Under the pieces are notes generated by a model, which was not told the origin of the DNA, did no database searches, and was given only the letters and a program-made list of their open reading frames with translations. A DNA stretch of 64,000 nt from Alphaproteobacteria bacterium (lineage in GTDB: Bacteria; Pseudomonadota; Alphaproteobacteria; Micavibrionales; Micavibrionaceae): positions 323 to 64,322 of the forward strand of contig JAACQG010000012.1 in NCBI GenBank assembly GCA_009995045.1, read 5' to 3'. Position 1 is the first letter of the stretch; every line of letters starts with the position of its first letter. Both the position numbers and the translations under genes were made by a program. Positions 3,704 to 13,799 of this stretch are shown piece after piece.

Positions 3704-6040
3704 TTAAGCCGCTTTCGCTTCTGAGCTTTTCGCGCGCATTTGTTTTGCTGCTTCAACCATGTGCTTAAGCGCTTCTTTGGTTTCTGGCCATGCACGTGTC
3801 TTAAGACCACAATCAGGGTTCACCCAGATTTGACGCTCCGCCAAGTTCTTCTTCGCTTTTTCAAGCAAATCAGTCATTTCCTGTGTTGTTGGAACACGCG
3901 GTGAGTGAATATCATAAACGCCCGGACCAATTTCGTTCGGATAGTTATAATCGATAAACGCCTCAAGCAATTCCATTTGCGAACGTGAACACTCGATAGA
4001 GATCACATCTGCATCCATCGCGCCAATGCTGTCGATAACATCATTGAATTCTGAATAACACATATGTGTGTGGATCTGTGTTTCGTCCTCAACACAACAT
4101 GAAGAGATACGGAAGTTCTCAACCGCGTTATCGAGATACTCTTTCCAATCTGAACGACGAAGTGGCAAACCTTCACGGAACGCTGCTTCATCGATTTGGA
4201 TCATCTTGATGCCTGCATCTTCCAAATCTTTCACTTCATCACGGATCGCAAGAGCGATCTGACGCGCTGTGTCATTACGTGGCTGGTCATCACGAACGAA
4301 AGACCACTGCAAGATTGTGATCGGGCCGGTTAACATGCCCTTCATGATCTTGTCTGTTTGCTCTTGCGCAAATTTTGACCAAGAAACAGTCATCGCTTTT
4401 GGACGGGAAACATCACCGAAAATGATCGGTGGCTTCACGCAACGCGTACCATATGATTGAACCCAACCATATTGAGAGAACGCGAAACCATCAAGCTGCT
4501 CACCGAAATATTCAACCATGTCATTACGCTCTGGCTCACCATGCACAAGAACATCAAGATCAACGTCATGTTGGAATGCAACAACGTCTTTGATTTCCTG
4601 TTCCATCGCGGCTTTGTATGTCGCCTCGTCAATATTGCCCTTCTTAAAGTCTGAACGCGCTTTACGGATTTCCGCAGTCTGCGGGAATGAGCCGATAGTC
4701 GTCGTCGGATAAAGAGGAATATCAAGCGCAGCATGTTGCTTTTCTTGACGCACATCAAACGGAGATTTGCGCTCTTTCATGTCTTCGGTGATGTGAGACA
4801 CACGATCCTCAACCACTTTGTTATGAATGCGTGGAGAGTTTTTACGGCTCTCTTGTGCATTATTGCTCGCAGTCAGCGCGGCAGCGATATTCTCGCGGCC
4901 TTCATTCGCACCTTTTGCAATCAACGCAAGTTCGTCCAATTTCTGTGTCGCATATGCCATCCAGCCCTTAAGCTCGTCATCAAGCTTAACTTCAGATTTA
5001 AGATCAACAGGAGAGTGAAGCAATGAACAGCTAGGCGCAACGAACACGCGCTCTGAACCAAGTTGCGCAACCGCCTTTTCGATATAGCCAAGAGACTGGC
5101 CAATGTTGTTTTTCCAAATGTTACGACCATCAACAACGCCCAATGAAAGGATCTTTTCATCACCAATCAATGAAAGCGCCTGATCAACATCTGCTTTCGC
5201 GCTGTTTGATGTTGTGTTCGCACGGCCTGAACCTCGGCAAAGATCAATATGGATCGCCTGTGTTGGAAGTGAGAATGCAAGTTCTGCATTTTCCTTAAGG
5301 GATTCAAAGTAAGTCGCAGTGATAACCTTAAGACCTTCAGGAATAACAAGTGCATCATACGCTGCCTTGATCGTACCCTGACCGATTTCGCAAAGATCAA
5401 GCGAGAATACAGGCTCATCAATTTGAACCCATTTCGCGCCACGCTCAGCAAGACCAGCAAGAATTTCGTTATAAACAGGGATCAAACCTTTAACGAATTC
5501 AACATGGTCGAAATCTTCATATTGTGGCTTACCAAGGAAAGTATAAGTCGCAGGACCCGCAATGACTGGGCGTGTTTCAATGCCCAACGCTTTTGCTTCT
5601 TCATACTCATCAAAAATCTTCGTTGATGAAAGCTTCGGTGTCATGCCTTTTTCAAATTCAGGAACAAGATAGTGATAGTTTGTGTCATACCACTTTGTCA
5701 TTTCCATCGCAGTCACATCAAGACCGTCACGCTGCGCACCACGTGCCATCGCGAAATATGTGTCAAGGTCAACATTGCCGCCTGTATGCTTATAACGTGA
5801 AGGGACAAGACCCAATGTCGTTGTCAAATCAAGGATAAGGTCATAATAAGCAAAATCATTCGATGGAATGCTATCAAGGCCAGCATCTTTTTGACGCTTC
5901 CAATTTGCAGCACGAAGTTCTTTACCAAGTGCAAGCAATTCGTCTTTCGAAGATTTGCCTTTCCAATAGGCTTCAACGCCCTTCTTAAGTTCCCGCATTG
6001 GACCAATGCGGGGGAATCCGAGGTTAGTCGCTAAAACCAT
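3704..6040 (-). CDS. metE: Cobalamin-independent methionine synthase
   Basis: 778 aa, the usual MetE length (about 750-780). It transfers a methyl group from 5-methyltetrahydrofolate-polyglutamate to homocysteine in the last step of methionine synthesis. The N-terminus (NLGFPRIGPMRELKKGVEAY) is the folate-binding barrel signature. The C-terminal barrel shows the zinc/homocysteine ligands in HTHMCYSEFNDVI (about residue 654), the conserved IECSRS and NPDCGLKTR with the third ligand Cys (about residue 739). A minus-strand promoter lies 46 bp upstream of the start. No cobalamin riboswitch is visible upstream. metF lies about 0.5 kb further upstream on the same strand. Confidence 0.97.
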   Translation of the reverse strand: MVLATNLGFPRIGPMRELKKGVEAYWKGKSSKDELLALGKELRAANWKRQKDAGLDSIPSNDFAYYDLILDLTTTLGLVPSRYKHTGGNVDLDTYFAMARGAQRDGLDVTAMEMTKWYDTNYHYLVPEFEKGMTPKLSSTKIFDEYEEAKALGIETRPVIAGPATYTFLGKPQYEDFDHVEFVKGLIPVYNEILAGLAERGAKWVQIDEPVFSLDLCEIGQGTIKAAYDALVIPEGLKVITATYFESLKENAELAFSLPTQAIHIDLCRGSGRANTTSNSAKADVDQALSLIGDEKILSLGVVDGRNIWKNNIGQSLGYIEKAVAQLGSERVFVAPSCSLLHSPVDLKSEVKLDDELKGWMAYATQKLDELALIAKGANEGRENIAAALTASNNAQESRKNSPRIHNKVVEDRVSHITEDMKERKSPFDVRQEKQHAALDIPLYPTTTIGSFPQTAEIRKARSDFKKGNIDEATYKAAMEQEIKDVVAFQHDVDLDVLVHGEPERNDMVEYFGEQLDGFAFSQYGWVQSYGTRCVKPPIIFGDVSRPKAMTVSWSKFAQEQTDKIMKGMLTGPITILQWSFVRDDQPRNDTARQIALAIRDEVKDLEDAGIKMIQIDEAAFREGLPLRRSDWKEYLDNAVENFRISSCCVEDETQIHTHMCYSEFNDVIDSIGAMDADVISIECSRSQMELLEAFIDYNYPNEIGPGVYDIHSPRVPTTQEMTDLLEKAKKNLAERQIWVNPDCGLKTRAWPETKEALKHMVEAAKQMRAKSSEAKAA

Positions 6041-6191: not shown

Positions 6192-6584
6192 TTACTGAAG
6201 CGGCAACAAACCTCGATCTTTACCAAGCTTGCCGCAATATTGCACCCATTCCCAGTTTTCTTTCATGTGAGAGAGCACTTTAACATCATCGCCGGATAAC
6301 CATCTTTCGTCCCATTTTTCAATCAACGCAGGAAGCTGCTTATCAATATAGGCTTTGCCATCACTCTGCCCTTCGGCCTTTGCTTGTGTGGCAGCGGCAT
6401 CTTTATAGGCATCGGATGTCTTTCTAAGGGCCTTAATTTGCGTTTCGGGCTTGCCCTTAGCTTGGGCAGTCATGCTAACGACATTATAAATTACCGAACA
6501 TTCCGCAAGGCTAATCGAAATCGGCTGCGCCGCTCGCGCGGATTGAAATGGAAAGATCAGCAAGAGCACGAGCAAATACCTCAT
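6192..6584 (-). CDS. Secreted hypothetical protein coupled to metF
   Basis: A 130-aa protein with a clear Sec signal peptide (MRYLLVLLLIFPFQSARA, cleavage after the Ala pair). The mature part is rich in Ala/Lys and has two cysteines (near residues 29 and 117) that could form a disulfide. Its ATG overlaps the metF stop (ATGA, 6581-6584), so it is translationally coupled to metF. I do not recognise the family; nothing in the sequence suggests a methionine role beyond the operon position. Confidence 0.65.
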   Translation of the reverse strand: MRYLLVLLLIFPFQSARAAQPISISLAECSVIYNVVSMTAQAKGKPETQIKALRKTSDAYKDAAATQAKAEGQSDGKAYIDKQLPALIEKWDERWLSGDDVKVLSHMKENWEWVQYCGKLGKDRGLLPLQ

Positions 6585-7435
6585 GACCCAGTATACCCCA
6601 ACGCCTCACATGCCTCTTTCGTAATCCCTGATTTATTGAGCGTATAATAATGAATATGCTCAACGCCGTTTGCCGCCAAATCAAGGGATTGCTCAACCAG
6701 CAATTCCGTCGCGATCTTGCGCGCCTCTTCAGGCTTATCATCAAGCCCCTCAAATTTCTCACACACCCAATCGGGCACATTCGCCTGACAATTCTTCGCA
6801 AAGCGAACAATCCCCGCAAAATTATGAATCGGCGTTAAACCCGGCACAACGGGTTTATCAATCCCCGCCGCCGCGCATTTATCCATGAATGTGTAATAAA
6901 CATCATTATCAAAGAAAAACTGTGTAATCCCGCGATGCCCGCCCGCATCCAATTTCGCTTTTAATGTGGCGATATCCTCATCCAAGCTCTTCGCATCAGG
7001 ATGCTTTTCAGGATACGCGCCAACCGAAATCTCAAACGGATGCATCGAAACAATATCTTCGATAAATTCCGGCGTGCTCTTATAAAATTCATCACCAAGG
7101 AAATCATCAAATGTCTTGCCCTTTGGCACATCCCCGCGTAGCGCAACAATATGGCGCACATTCTTGCCCCACAACTCCTCAAGATACCCCCGCAATTCAT
7201 CGCGCGTCGTCGTCAAAAACGTCAGATGCGACGCAATCGGCATAGGCTGCTCCGCGGCCATTGTTTCCGCGATCTTTAATGTCGTATCTTTCGTCGTCCC
7301 GCCCGCGCCATATGTCACAGTCATGAATGTCGGATCAAGCGCCGCCAAACTCGGCACACTCTCCCACATAGCCGCCTCTGCATCCGCAGATTTAGGGGGA
7401 AAAAATTCAAATGAAATATCAGGTTTCTTGTTCAT
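6581..7435 (-). CDS. metF: 5,10-methylenetetrahydrofolate reductase
   Basis: A flavoprotein that reduces methylene-THF to methyl-THF, the methyl donor used by MetE. I start at 7435, giving 284 aa beginning MNKKPDISFEFFPPKS, which is where MetF proteins normally begin. The frame remains open another 33 codons upstream, but that extension is unlike the family. Family signatures seen: SFEFFPPKS with the catalytic Glu near residue 10, TVTYGAGG, HIVALRGDVP, GAYPEKHPDA and FFFDNDVYY. The stop overlaps the start of the secreted ORF by 4 bp. Confidence 0.95.
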   Translation of the reverse strand: MNKKPDISFEFFPPKSADAEAAMWESVPSLAALDPTFMTVTYGAGGTTKDTTLKIAETMAAEQPMPIASHLTFLTTTRDELRGYLEELWGKNVRHIVALRGDVPKGKTFDDFLGDEFYKSTPEFIEDIVSMHPFEISVGAYPEKHPDAKSLDEDIATLKAKLDAGGHRGITQFFFDNDVYYTFMDKCAAAGIDKPVVPGLTPIHNFAGIVRFAKNCQANVPDWVCEKFEGLDDKPEEARKIATELLVEQSLDLAANGVEHIHYYTLNKSGITKEACEALGYTGS

Positions 7436-7603
7436 AAAATTTTGTAACAGGAAGAAAGAAAATCGCAAAGTGCAAAATGACGATCCCTGCATTTTGTTTC
7501 CGCGCCCCCACTGATCCTCATAGTTGATCATCACATAAAACGCACATCAATTGAAATTTGACTGCGAATAACCTTTGCATCTGCGCGCGCACCCGTTTAA
7601 ATA

Positions 7604-9205
7604 ATGCATATGACACAAGCAGAAAAAATTATCACACCCGAAGTTGCCACCGACCATGAGCATATCCTCATCCTCGATTTTGGCTCCCAAGTCACCCAAT
7701 TGATCGCACGCCGCGTCCGTGAAAGCGGCGTCTATTGCGAGATTTGGCCATTCAACGCAACTGATGTTGAGCGTATAAAGCAATACAACCCCAAAGGGAT
7801 CATCCTCGGCGGCGGCCCGTGTTCGGTCACCGATGAAGATTCCCCGCGTGCACCCGACGGCATATTTGACCTCGGCCTGCCGATCTTTGGCATCTGCTAT
7901 GGTCAGCAAACAATGGTTGAACAGCTCGGCGGTAAAGTCGTCGGCGGACAAGGCGAGGGCGAATTTGGCCGCGCCAAGGTCGAAGTGTTAGAACATTCCG
8001 ACATCACCACCGATGTCTGGGACGCAGGCGCAGTTGAGCAAGTCTGGATGAGCCATGGCGACCATGTCGAATCCCTGCCCGATGGATTCCAAGTCATCGC
8101 CAAATCAAGCGGCGCACCCTTTGCCTTCATCGCCGACCCAAAACGCAAATTCTACGGCGTGCAATTCCACCCCGAAGTCGTGCATACCCCCCATGGGAAA
8201 GACCTTCTCAAAAACTTCACCCATAATGTCTGTGGCTGTTCGGGTGATTGGACGATGCAAAATTTCCGCGACGAAGCGATTAAGAAAATCCGCGAACAAG
8301 TGGGCGACGGCAAAGTCATCTGCGGCCTCTCGGGCGGCGTTGATTCCTCCGTGACCGCTGTCCTCCTGCACGAAGCCATCGGCGATCAGCTCACCTGTAT
8401 CTATGTTGATACCGGCATGATGCGCGCAGGCGAAAGCGAACAAGTCGTGACCCTCTTCCGCGACAATTACAACATCCCCCTTATCCACGAAGACGCGAGT
8501 GAGAAATTCCTCGGCGGCCTCGAAGGGGTCAGCGATCCTGAAATGAAACGCAAAATCATCGGCGGCATGTTCATTGATGTCTTCGATAATTGTAAAAAAC
8601 GCGTCGGCGGCGCAGATTTCCTTGCCCAAGGAACGCTCTATCCTGATGTGATCGAATCGGTATCCTTTACAGGCGGCCCATCGGTCACTATCAAATCCCA
8701 CCATAATGTCGGCGGTCTGCCCGAGCATATGGAGCTAAAACTGGTTGAACCTCTGCGTGAGCTGTTCAAGGACGAAGTCCGCGATCTTGGCCGCGCCCTC
8801 GGCATGCCCGAAGATTTCATCGGCCGCCATCCATTCCCCGGCCCCGGCCTTGCCATCCGCATCCCCGGTGAGATCACGGGCGAAAAGCTCGAAATCCTAA
8901 GAAAGGCCGACACGGTCTATCTTGATGAAATTCGAAAAAGCGGTCTTTATGATGATATCTGGCAAGCCTTCGCTGTCCTGCTTCCCGTGCGCACCGTGGG
9001 TGTAATGGGCGATGCCCGCACCTATGATTTCGTCTGCGCCCTACGCGCCGTCACATCCACCGACGGCATGACCGCTGACTACTACCCCTTCGAACATGAA
9101 TTTTTGGGCCGCGTCAGCACCCGCATCATCAACGAAGTCAAAGGCATCAACCGCGTCGTCTACGACATCACCAGCAAACCACCAGGCACGATTGAGTGGG
9201 AGTAG
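7604..9205 (+). CDS. guaA: GMP synthase (glutamine-hydrolysing)
   Basis: 533 aa. It converts XMP to GMP using glutamine and ATP. Domains in order: class I glutamine amidotransferase (nucleophile in [10 protein letters not shown], about residue 107; His-Glu in [10 protein letters not shown], about residue 194); ATP pyrophosphatase with PP-loop [12 protein letters not shown] (about residue 246); C-terminal dimerisation domain ending PPGTIEWE. A second ATG at 7610 is an attractive alternative start: TAAATA at 7598-7603 lies just upstream of it and there is no Shine-Dalgarno, which would make the mRNA leaderless. The last 17 bp before the stop region are repeated at 10080-10096. Confidence 0.97.
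9187..9203 (+). repeat. 17-bp direct repeat, copy 1 (inside guaA 3' end)
   Basis: CACGATTGAGTGGGAGT lies inside the last codons of guaA and recurs exactly at 10080-10096. The guaA 3' end is a known integration hotspot for genomic islands, so this looks like an attachment-site core. Confidence 0.75.
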
Positions 9206-9212
9206 AAGACTG

Positions 9213-10007
9213 ATGAACGTGAAAAAAGCACTCAAAGTATTGGTAGGTTTTGTTTTGGGTGCATTCGCTGTTCTCTTCGTGATGGCGTATATTCTTCTGT
9301 TTGCTGTAACTGGAACAGAACCGATCTCACAGATGGCGCGGGGATTTCAAAACAGATGTGAATCTGATTTGTCGAAAGAAACGACCCTTGTTAATTTTGT
9401 AGAGCGCGATTTGTATTTGCCGAGTAAGCATCTTCACGCTTGTTACCCGCTAGATATGAGCACTTCATTTGATTATGACCCAGCATCAGTATCGCTTGTA
9501 GGTTTGTTACCAGATTTCAGCATTCCTAATTTTGAACCTGAAATTTACTTAGAAAAAGAAGATGAAATCAGAATTCATTTCACAGGTTCGCGACCAGACA
9601 TTAATGAAGTTGATCCGATGATTAAACTCGGTTTCTCTGATCTTGAGAAGAGCTTTAACTATATGACAAATGTTAAGCTGAATCGTGATGGACAAAAAAT
9701 TGCAAAATATGACGAAGGACAAAAGACAGATTATGGTCTAACTTTTTACAAGACGAATGCAACAGGAACATTTGCAAAAGACTTGTATGTTCATAGAAAT
9801 GATGCTGGGAAAATAGACTTTATGATCGAGTGTTATAACAAAGATAAAAAACCAGCGCCGCGTGTTTTCTACTGCTCATCTGTATCGGAAAGTCTATATG
9901 ACAACGTATCGTTCAAATATGGTTTCACGCTTAAGCACATTGCTGATGCTGAAAGGATTGATCGGATGGTAAAAGACATTGTTCAGGATACGGTCGAGGC
10001 GAAATAA
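9213..10007 (+). CDS. Membrane-anchored hypothetical protein (accessory)
   Basis: 264 aa from the ATG at 9213, 7 nt after the guaA stop and preceded by GGGAG in the guaA tail. The frame is open further upstream, but that part overlaps guaA. There is one N-terminal membrane helix (about residues 8-32); the rest is a predicted periplasmic domain of about 230 aa. Four cysteines stand out, including a C-terminal pair around FMIECYNKDKK...RVFYCSS. I do not recognise the family. Codon use and AT content differ visibly from guaA, and the gene lies between the two 17-bp repeats, which suggests horizontal acquisition. Confidence 0.7.
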   Translation: MNVKKALKVLVGFVLGAFAVLFVMAYILLFAVTGTEPISQMARGFQNRCESDLSKETTLVNFVERDLYLPSKHLHACYPLDMSTSFDYDPASVSLVGLLPDFSIPNFEPEIYLEKEDEIRIHFTGSRPDINEVDPMIKLGFSDLEKSFNYMTNVKLNRDGQKIAKYDEGQKTDYGLTFYKTNATGTFAKDLYVHRNDAGKIDFMIECYNKDKKPAPRVFYCSSVSESLYDNVSFKYGFTLKHIADAERIDRMVKDIVQDTVEAK

Positions 10008-10079
10008 TTCAACATCGGACTGTGAATATACTACAAACGGATTTTTTATGATTAAAAATCAAATGCTTAATATAATACT

Positions 10080-10096
10080 CACGATTGAGTGGGAGT
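10080..10096 (+). repeat. 17-bp direct repeat, copy 2 of the guaA 3' end
   Basis: An exact second copy of CACGATTGAGTGGGAGT, 893 bp after the first. It supplies the GTGGGAG ribosome binding site of the DUF6338-like gene that starts at 10100. No integrase gene remains between the copies. Confidence 0.75.
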
Positions 10097-10099
10097 GAT

Positions 10100-10684
10100 A
10101 TGCCTGAATTAGACATTGAAAAATTACTATATTTTTCTGCTTTTATTTTACCGGGGGCGATATCACTGTTGGTACACAAACTCATTGAAAGTTCTAAAGA
10201 GGATAACTTAAAAGAAAAAATTATTGAGGCGATAGTATACAGCATGGCAAATATAACTATTGTTATCTTGCCATTAAAATATGCTTTCGAATCTTTTCAA
10301 AGTAACGAATTTTTACTTGCTTATGGGGTGATAGTTTTTTGCTTTTTTATTACTCCTGCAATTTGGCCATTTGTTTTAATCAAAACACTCAAAGAAATGG
10401 AAAAAAATAAGCTGATAAAACCTAGAATGAAAACTGCGTGGGATCACTATTTTACTAATTTGAGAGAAGGTTCTTATGTTATTGTTCATATGAACGATGG
10501 AACTCATATAGGAGGAATGTTTGGAGAAAAATCTTACGCTAGTGGTTTCCCTAATACAGGCGAAATATATATTGAAGAGTTATGGGACGTAAATAAAGAT
10601 GGAAAATTTACTGGCACGTCCTTAAAAGGGCAGGGTATTATAATAAAAGCAGATCAATATAAGTATATTAGAGTTTCTTCATAG
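10100..10684 (+). CDS. DUF6338-like membrane protein
   Basis: 194 aa starting at the ATG at 10100, with a ribosome binding site inside the second 17-bp repeat. The N-terminal half carries three predicted membrane helices (about residues 10-28, 45-65 and 75-98). The C-terminal cytosolic domain has AWDHYFTNLREGSYVIVHM, DGTHIGGMFGEKSYAS, GEIYIEELW and a DKDGKF-like turn. That pattern matches my memory of the DUF6338 family, which has no known function. It is strongly AT-rich compared with guaA and is followed 17 nt later by a tiny proline-rich gene, a pairing that I recall as recurrent. Gene call firm; family assignment moderate. Confidence 0.7.
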   Translation: MPELDIEKLLYFSAFILPGAISLLVHKLIESSKEDNLKEKIIEAIVYSMANITIVILPLKYAFESFQSNEFLLAYGVIVFCFFITPAIWPFVLIKTLKEMEKNKLIKPRMKTAWDHYFTNLREGSYVIVHMNDGTHIGGMFGEKSYASGFPNTGEIYIEELWDVNKDGKFTGTSLKGQGIIIKADQYKYIRVSS

Positions 10685-10701
10685 ATAAAGGAAAGTTAAA
10701 G

Positions 10702-10863
10702 ATGTCTGAAAAAGATAATAATAAAAAAACTGAAATCAAAAATGACAACGCTGGCAGAACAGTACAATTGAGGGAACAGCGGGGGTATACGGCCCCAGCG
10801 CCCGCACCTTCTAAGCCGCCTTCAAGCATGATGTCGAACCAGTCAGACGGGAAAAAGAAATAG
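10702..10863 (+). CDS. Small proline-rich partner of the DUF6338-like protein
   Basis: 53 aa, ATG at 10702, preceded by AAAGGAAAG. The N-terminal half is Lys/Asn-rich and polar. The second half contains REQRGYTAPAPAPSKPPSS and ends in GKKK. The QRGY-(T/Q)-x-Pro-rich arrangement is what I recall in small proteins encoded next to DUF6338 genes. No membrane segment or signal peptide. It probably forms a two-gene operon with the preceding gene; function unknown. Confidence 0.6.
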   Translation: MSEKDNNKKTEIKNDNAGRTVQLREQRGYTAPAPAPSKPPSSMMSNQSDGKKK

Positions 10864-12325: not shown

Positions 12326-13210
12326 ATGGGCGAAAATGTAATCAACATTAAAACGGGTTTGGCTGAAATGTTAAAAGGCGGCGTCATCATGGACGTTGTA
12401 ACAGCCGAACAAGCAAAAGTCGCAGAAGACGCAGGCGCAGTGGCTGTTATGGCATTGGAACGCGTTCCATCCGATATCCGTAAAGCTGGCGGTGTTGCCC
12501 GCATGTCGCCCCCTGAATTGATCGAAGAGATCATGGCCGCATCATCCATCCCCGTGATGGCAAAATGCCGCATCGGTCACTTCGCCGAAGCACAAATCCT
12601 GCAGCATATCGGCGTTGATTACATCGACGAGAGCGAAGTGCTCACCCCTGCAGATGAAGAATATCACATCAACAAACACGACTTTAAAGTCCCATTCGTT
12701 TGTGGCGCTAAAAACCTTGGTGAGGCTCTACGCCGCATCGGTGAAGGCGCAGCGCTTATCCGCTCCAAAGGCGAGCCGGGCACAGGCAATATCGTCGAAG
12801 CCGTTCGCCACATGCGTGACATCAACAACGACATCAAACGCGTCATCAGCGCAGATGATGCAGAACTCATGACAATGGCGCGCGACATGGGCGCACCATT
12901 CGAGCTATTGAGAATTGTAAAAAGAGAAGGCCGCCTTCCTGTGCCGCTCTTTTCTGCTGGCGGTATTGCAACCCCTGCGGACGCAGCCCTTTGCATGCAG
13001 CTCGGCGCGGATACAGTATTCGTGGGCTCTGGTATCTTCAAATCCGATAACCCCGAGAAATTCGCAAAAGCCATCGTTAAAGCAACGGCGCATTTCGATG
13101 ACCCAGCAATTGTCCTCGAAGCATCAAAAGAGCTTGGCGGCGTAGCGATGCGCGGTACAGAAATCAGCGAATTAGACGAGCCAATGAAAATGGCCAATCG
13201 CGGCTGGTAA
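12326..13210 (+). CDS. pdxS: Pyridoxal 5'-phosphate synthase, synthase subunit
   Basis: 294 aa, the standard PdxS length. It condenses ribose-5-phosphate (or ribulose-5-phosphate), glyceraldehyde-3-phosphate and PdxT-derived ammonia to PLP. The (beta/alpha)8-barrel shows [38 protein letters not shown] (conserved active-site lysine), [15 protein letters not shown] and phosphate-binding GSGIFKS near residue 232. An AAGGA ribosome binding site precedes the ATG. pdxT follows after 16 nt, so they are co-transcribed. This deoxyxylulose-independent route is unusual in Alphaproteobacteria, which mostly use PdxA/PdxJ. Confidence 0.97.
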
Positions 13211-13226
13211 GAGGTTTTTTTAGAAA

Positions 13227-13799
13227 ATGCCTGAACCCGTAATAGGATGCCTAGCCCTCCAAGGCTGCGTAGATAGACATCGCCCGCACATCGAAGCTGC
13301 GGGCGCTTCTTTTAAAGCCGTAAAAACCGCAAAACAATTCGATGAAATCGACGCCTTCATCCTGCCCGGCGGCGAAAGCACGACGATGCTGAAATTGATC
13401 GAGAATTTCGATCTGTGGGATATCCTCAGCCAGCAATTCGCCGCCAAGCCTGTCTGGGGCATCTGCGCCGGATCCATCCTCCTCGCCGAGATCGTCGAAA
13501 ATCCTGCACAAAAATCATTCGGCGTTCTCCCCGTGACCGCCATCCGTAACGGTTATGGCCGTCAGCTAGAGAGCGAGATCATCGCCGTTGATGGCTATGA
13601 CGTCTCCTTCATCCGCGCGCCCATCCTCACCAAACCCGCAAGCCGCGTGGAAATCCTCCACACCCGCAACGGTGAGCCAACATGGATTAGAGACGGCAAA
13701 AACATGGCCTCTACCTTCCATCCCGAACTCACATTTGATTTCCCATCCCCTATGCATTCTATGTTTGTCGAGATCGTGAAGAAAACCGCAACAGCATGA
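13227..13799 (+). CDS. pdxT: Pyridoxal 5'-phosphate synthase, glutaminase subunit
   Basis: A 190-aa class I glutamine amidotransferase of the PdxT/SNO family, supplying ammonia to PdxS. Seen: IGCLALQGCVDRHRPHIEA at the N-terminus, PGGESTTM (about residue 47), nucleophile elbow WGICAGSILLA (about residue 79) and the His-x-Glu pair STFHPELTFD (about residue 168). All three triad members are present. Forms the 12+12 complex with PdxS in studied species. Confidence 0.96.
   Translation: MPEPVIGCLALQGCVDRHRPHIEAAGASFKAVKTAKQFDEIDAFILPGGESTTMLKLIENFDLWDILSQQFAAKPVWGICAGSILLAEIVENPAQKSFGVLPVTAIRNGYGRQLESEIIAVDGYDVSFIRAPILTKPASRVEILHTRNGEPTWIRDGKNMASTFHPELTFDFPSPMHSMFVEIVKKTATA

Follow-up and report, generated by a model that had tools for sequence, protein, structure and literature searches.

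A guaA-docked islet and a candidate membrane module of DUF6338 with a small proline-rich partner

Two sets of described systems are among the closest to the locus reported here, a short islet at the 3´ end of guaA followed by a gene for a DUF6338 protein and a gene for a 53-aa proline-rich protein, all within a 64,000-nt stretch of an Alphaproteobacteria bacterium of the Micavibrionaceae (contig JAACQG010000012.1, positions 323 to 64,322; "the window" below). Genomic islands at guaA (Song et al. 2012, as cited in PMC7775301; ICERspD18B) use the same site, and the passages of PMC7775301 concerned with them give a direct repeat with the common 8-bp core GAGTGGGA and integrases that are often of the phage P4 type. 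In Pseudomonas stutzeri, a 2023 proteomics study (PMC10433244) described a predicted operon that combines a DUF6338 gene with genes for small proline-rich proteins; the latter were seen by mass spectrometry and called found only in P. stutzeri. This is the same arrangement as that of the window pair, with neither function nor fold stated in the section of the report concerned; here, by comparison, the partner occurs across many genera, and a motif, evidence of selection and a predicted fold are added. In the open-licence full text on DUF6338 that was searched, the pair was unreported beyond P. stutzeri, and the combination of DUF6338 and a peptide as a system is not described in the family libraries and literature searched.

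Our data give good support to DUF6338 and its partner as an autonomous mobile two-gene module, and likewise to the guaA 3´ end as an integration hotspot in this bacterial family. The explanation we favor, at a probability of roughly 40%, combines a guaA-docked islet with a mobile pair that would form a membrane-bound Sm ring under peptide control, acting against invaders. The features of the locus are:

7604..9205, + strand: guaA, GMP synthase, a 533-aa open reading frame (ORF) with C-terminus GTIEWE; its 3´ end is the integration site
9187..9203, + strand: repeat copy 1, an att-like core containing GAGTGGGA, made of the final guaA coding bases and one base of the stop codon
9213..10007, + strand: orf1, 264 aa, AT-rich, with an N-terminal membrane anchor; the sole gene between the repeats
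10080..10096, + strand: repeat copy 2, resembling a ribosome-binding site and leader of DUF6338; its GGGAG ends 4 nt before the ATG
10100..10684, + strand: DUF6338 protein, 194 aa, PF19865; predicted as three long helices, a short helix and an Sm-like barrel
10702..10863, + strand: proline-rich partner, 53 aa, with QRGYTAPAPAP and C-terminal GKKK; identified as an ORF and by the family-wide partner test

We take the first gene to be guaA, the name given in the original prediction, which agrees with the sequence of GMP synthase.

The DUF6338 gene and its small partner

The DUF6338-like identity suggested earlier from the sequence holds, since residues 5-193 match PF19865 at 120.1 bits (curated cut-off 26.5); two weak Pfam matches, both under their cut-offs, were set aside (Pox_D3, E 0.015; DUF7649, E 0.04). 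The gene is not a housekeeping gene of the family, being over the cut-off in 1/105 genomes, with five more sub-threshold. The 53-aa gene had no family match in the libraries scanned, and PADLOC models gave 0 families for orf1, DUF6338 and the 53-aa gene at E ≤ 1.

We assembled 94 loci (L numbers; genomes carry G numbers), 43 from GTDB contigs, collected by means of a four-sequence alignment from a single clade and biased to that clade, and 51 from IMG/VR. Two loci at contig ends (L158, L229) were left out of the partner count, giving 42 and 50 with testable downstream DNA. To count as a partner, a frame of 30-100 aa had to lie on the DUF6338 strand, contain the motif G[YWF]xP and start -40 to +160 nt from the DUF6338 stop. 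Such a frame adjoined DUF6338 at 89 of the 92 loci (40/42 in GTDB contigs, 49/50 in IMG/VR), as the suggested co-occurrence of a small proline-rich gene with DUF6338 homologues had anticipated; random positions gave 136/7329 and the ends of other long frames 25/793. Of the three misses, L138 has an SYxP version of the motif and L149 a variant, and at L224 the partner frame is truncated and has a stop-free DUF6338 frame next to it. Near-duplicate loci are present, the 89 partners representing 77 distinct sequences. These are 42-86 aa long with 17% proline, carry one to four motifs each (GYQP 130 times), lack cysteine in 75/77 cases and have tails such as PPPKKP, PPPKKR and PPGDE. The window partner, with QRGYTAPAPAP, has GYxxP rather than the strict GYxP, and is presumably disordered. 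Codon comparison in four groups put the ratio of nonsynonymous to synonymous change (pN/pS) at 0.17-0.31 for the partner, and for DUF6338 it was 0.14-0.25; from these values we read both genes as protein; the small gene and DUF6338 are under purifying selection.

Sixteen loci found with the Pfam model, and thus free of the alignment bias, were checked by a looser composition rule, which flagged 15/16 of them and 187/1311 control positions; by eye, the flagged L112 is doubtful and the unflagged L120 looks right. Five further loci of this sample were left out as split, partial or unresolved (L115, L116, L119, L128, L129). Partner-like frames were present at all six plasmid and phage loci (L130-L135) and at all five Escherichia coli loci (L230-L234), with no annotated partner at L234. 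Among actinobacterial loci, partner-like frames were seen at L236 and L239 and weaker ones at L235 and L238, with none convincing at L237. Acinetobacter plasmids carry two partners in a row. Tandem GYxP-type partners behind one DUF6338 were observed at L132, L133, L134, L167, L187, L189 and L204, and are a possible counterpart of the three small P. stutzeri proteins. With regard to arrangement and motif, our data speak against species-specificity.

We rejected orf1 as a component of the module, with 0/1273 predicted neighbor proteins at the 94 DUF6338 loci matching it at E ≤ 1e-3. A conserved same-strand third component was also rejected, as the nearest same-strand neighbors upstream and downstream fall in clusters of at most four (the clustering covered this strand). 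Since no same-strand neighbor is widely common, the pair looks autonomous.

The pair is found on plasmids and in settings that we call prophages or satellites by interpretation of their annotation. Two E. coli copies (L231, L233) lie near the repressor-integrase end of prophages, one (L234) lies beside phage tail-fibre genes, and two (L230, L232) lie in integrase-helicase elements with TIR, one of the two also having SIR2; DNA like one E. coli-type copy was detected in 10/5426 E. coli genomes. TIR and caspase genes adjoin the pair in Proteus, Lysobacter (L148) and Curtobacterium (L239), and at L130 the pair and these two kinds of gene belong to a Tn7-like element; a phmmer search with these caspases among the 94 loci gave one further strong neighbor match, that of Lysobacter L148. 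CHAT adjoins the pair in Streptomyces, and nucleotidyltransferase/SLATT in Mesorhizobium. The TIR plus caspase loci, which we take to be Thoeris-like, thus adjoin the DUF6338 pair in some genomes and are absent from the window patch. A scan of 145 of 161 chosen neighbor proteins (some above 900 aa, those of L178 and most of those of L177 were left out) gave at least three caspase, two TIR, two RT and two SIR2 matches, counts that come without a control set and carry no claim of enrichment. A viral structure library gave one full-length match, the uncharacterised A0A8S5PTE5 (E 5.7e-6). A viral scan with the window DUF6338 alone returned 42 candidate stretches and no relative, and a plasmid search with P0003 gave no match.

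We also noted a DEAD/DEAH helicase on the other strand, ~1.4 kb before DUF6338, that recurs at 15/94 loci in one satellite-like element type. Satellite-like elements were seen at L230, L232 and L165 and at the viral loci L191, L193-L198, L212, L215, L216, L220, L221, L226 and L227; TIR, SIR2 or VRR-NUC genes follow in several of them.

Two short adjoining genes in mobile settings, carried by plasmids and prophages, could also be a toxin-antitoxin or addiction module that secures maintenance of the element, with DUF6338 harming the membrane and the small protein neutralising it. However, the partner comes after and not before the membrane gene, tandem partners can follow one DUF6338, and at L224 a truncated partner stands beside a stop-free DUF6338 frame. 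We therefore regard addiction as rather improbable.

The guaA 3´ end as an integration site

The 17-bp repeat CACGATTGAGTGGGAGT at the window locus contains GAGTGGGA, the 8-bp consensus reported for guaA islands in the part of PMC7775301 that deals with them. As originally noted, the guaA 3´-end repeat recurs exactly at 10080: the copies at 9187-9203 and 10080-10096, 893 bp apart, are identical. They are the only matches with up to two mismatches in the whole genome (1.89 Mb in 32 contigs, possibly an incomplete assembly), and no third copy was found within the window; shuffles of the window averaged 0.17 matches when up to three mismatches were allowed. DUF6338 starts 3 nt past repeat copy 2 and the 53-aa gene 17 nt past the DUF6338 stop. 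The GC content is 0.55 for guaA, 0.38 for orf1, 0.32 for DUF6338 and 0.45 for the 53-aa gene, and the description of orf1 as AT-rich and membrane-anchored is borne out by this value and by a single, N-terminal hydrophobic stretch. At E ≤ 1 the orf1 product matched nothing in Pfam, PHROG or PADLOC, and its one NCBIfam match is below threshold (E 0.034, 13.4 bits, cut-off 500); its relatives occur in 3/105 genomes of the family including its own, the best other at 26% identity.

The guaA C-terminal part was matched in 98/105 genomes of the same family (own included). From these we took downstream DNA of 40 relatives; one with a guaA frame lacking the usual end (L066) was left out, so that the usable sequences number 40, from 39 relatives plus the window. 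A frame of at least 120 codons starting -4 to +17 nt from the guaA stop was present in 23/40 sequences, compared with 1608/11700 random positions (13.7%) and 56/334 other gene ends (16.8%). Most docked genes are AT-rich (GC ≤ 0.41 in 19/23), and few are related to each other, a comparison of 26 frames revealing four homologous pairs, each spanning two genera. In G053/G001, G054/G085, G057/G009 and G055/G096, genomes of different genera have homologous genes at one and the same guaA position, which points to site-specific exchange or common inheritance.

A second repeat copy on the guaA strand, with up to three mismatches, was detected in 4/40 sequences (the window, L069, L073 and L088), each time with accessory genes between the copies, so that the suggested comparison of guaA downstream regions turned up no second copy without them. 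In L069 the copy lies at +1042 with three mismatches and one gene between, and in L073 at +435 with two mismatches. In L088 (G098), guaA is followed by a 441-aa tyrosine integrase, further genes, a repeat with one mismatch at +9863 and a frame starting just inside that copy. This island of ~9.9 kb (108 to 9880 nt past the guaA stop) holds two integrase-domain genes, an 897-aa AAA ATPase and several others. The best five matches to the L088 integrase (G098 itself, G099, G006, G012 and G023) are found 110-190 nt past the matched guaA end, and the same holds in G084 for a 90-residue integrase fragment with a stop; matches from G021 onward are located away from the guaA end. The published core and the relatives with integrases directly after guaA agree with the proposal of an integration hotspot at the 3´ end of guaA.

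The repeat might instead not be an integration scar, the guaA tail having been copied by local duplication or homologous recombination. Several observations weigh against our explanation here: the islet has no integrase, 17 bp is short, the reverse-strand control also gave two matches with up to three mismatches, and copy 2 in L069 is fused to another small reading frame. In that locus (G007), at ~960-1060 and 1430-1510 nt past guaA, copy 2 by eye ends a small frame whose start is like that of another small frame ~450 bp further, as if recombination had joined a gene start to the guaA tail. On the other side, the repeat core holds the published guaA-island consensus, the L088 island with an integrase has the same ends, and single AT-rich genes are docked at guaA in many relatives, making a copied tail a poor candidate. 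The 9-mer GAGTGGGAG occurs four times forward and never in reverse in 451 kb, which alone is not significant; we consider the second copies not to be due to chance because of the exact 17-mer and L088, not because of the GAGTGGGAG counts.

Docking at guaA by integration, the explanation we prefer, would leave the window islet with a particular history. The original prediction took 9187-10863 as possibly a decayed or minimal island with the pair as a repeat-flanked module. A single genomic island over this range is ruled out, as the repeats bracket orf1 only; what stands is an islet without integrase, and a DUF6338/small-gene unit that is real and conserved and lies outside the repeat-bounded segment. 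Compared with described guaA islands, the islet is 893 bp long, with one gene and no integrase, and docked genes begin at the guaA stop. No guaA-adjacent integrase is present in the window element, orf1 being alone between the repeats, and the window genome had no match to the L088 integrase at E ≤ 1e-10 (other integrase kinds were not searched there). As no integrase of the guaA kind tested remains, the islet would have been mobilised in trans or be a remnant. When the outer flanks are joined, guaA reads GAG TGG GAG TGA with the DUF6338 ATG one base later, a spacing in the range of the docked genes of relatives. Because this junction gives a proper guaA stop and an adjacent DUF6338 start, DUF6338 and its partner probably docked first. 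The later arrival of orf1, at a point between guaA and this pair, would have duplicated the 17-bp core; repeat copy 2 is then probably the older guaA end. The order of arrival comes from the junction, DUF6338 being above the cut-off only in the window's own genome, so that the family offers no relative with the pair and no orf1. The orf1 gene and the DUF6338 pair look like two separate arrivals. Accessory genes dock directly behind guaA, where the att-like core with GGGAGT could serve the first arrival as leader and ribosome-binding site.

Genes that we take to be metE-like and metF-like lie beside guaA (window 3704-6040 and 6581-7534), and presumed pdxS-like and pdxT-like genes follow the patch (window 12326-13799); in several of the loci taken from the 40 relatives, both of the latter have matches downstream of guaA.

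Predicted fold and candidate modes of action

The AlphaFold2 model of the window DUF6338 (predicted local distance difference test 84.1, predicted template modelling score 0.60) has helices at 6-29, 37-67 and 71-102, a short helix at 113-119 and an Sm-like barrel at 125-193; hydropathy exceeds 1.6 only at 41-59 and 69-97. AlphaFold models were made of two distant members, and in both of them membrane helices go with an Sm/LSm/Hfq-like fold. The PDB structure matches listed for these single-chain predicted models are without exception to chains of Sm type and extend over most of the domain, and no PDB sequence match was found at E ≤ 1. The models thus give good support to a predicted Sm fold behind three predicted helices, which we take to be membrane helices. 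The likeness to Sm/LSm/Hfq proteins is predicted for residues ~107-194, a helix and small barrel; in contrast to these proteins, DUF6338 has preceding membrane helices, no significant profile match and no evident RNA-binding signature. Membership in Hfq or MscS by sequence was unsupported in hhalign.

The likeness raises the possibility that DUF6338 forms a membrane-anchored Hfq/LSm-like ring for capturing RNA, in which the small protein would be a cofactor comparable to the disordered tail of Hfq. The listed PDB matches, of Sm/LSm/Hfq type, are mostly RNA-binding, and in the alignment with Hfq the Sm1-like stretch VxVxLxxGxxxxG is in register. RNA-binding Sm1 sequences have the motif D-x-x-x-N, whereas the conserved loop of DUF6338, assigned by eye, is SFASSxP, and the Hfq match is not significant (hhalign probability ~1%, against a narrow profile of 13 relatives' Hfq). 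An RNA-binding role is thus unlikely.

The middle domain of MscS also has an Sm-like fold, and DUF6338 might be a minimal MscS-like channel for host physiology with the peptide as gate. Helices followed by a beta domain would suit such a channel. According to the part of PMC12334622 on the miniature TcMscS, that protein has membrane helices and then a cytoplasmic beta domain, as DUF6338 does, and this minimal layout, with two membrane-embedded helices, can conduct; no sequence similarity between MscS-like channels and DUF6338 was detected. However, hhalign gave no alignment with relatives' MscS, there was no PF00924 match at E ≤ 1, the third DUF6338 helix by eye lacks the Gly/Ala-rich pattern of relatives' MscS, and the distribution is phage-rich. 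The best 50 structure matches listed contain no MscS, which is not evidence of a difference. We find a host channel very improbable.

We favor a different use of the fold. Sm-fold proteins usually form six- or seven-membered rings, and as DUF6338 combines an Sm domain with membrane helices, it would most likely assemble into a membrane ring. Small beta domains typically have as ligands short motifs that recur along a proline-rich chain; for this reason we take the partner, with its one to four G-Y-x-P repeats and proline tail, as ligand and regulator of the ring, most likely binding the Sm domains as a linear motif. The bound partner may keep the ring inactive or signal when to act. If a phage or other invading element disturbed the pair, the ring would alter the membrane, by a leak or a block, and infection would stop; we propose a role in mobile-element conflict because the distribution is mobile, patchy and phage-rich. 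A fuller version, in which the pair is an undescribed immune or superinfection-exclusion system whose membrane-embedded Sm ring opens or blocks the membrane when an invader displaces the repeat peptide, and in which the guaA dock captures single promoterless genes that are mobilised in trans and expressed from the guaA leader as soon as they arrive, is possible and at present doubtful. Of the undescribed membrane-associated system first suggested, a single locus has grown into a widespread module with a predicted fold and a putative defence function.

For this bacterial family, the guaA end emerges as a variable dock for single genes. The module itself occurs across many genera of proteobacteria and in contigs that carry the labels of other phyla; prophages, plasmids and satellite-like elements have it as well. 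That it has mostly escaped notice is probably due to the shortness of one of its two genes. In the pair, predicted membrane helices are joined to a fold familiar from RNA biology, its peptide motif can be searched for, and a domain of unknown function thereby becomes a testable pair.

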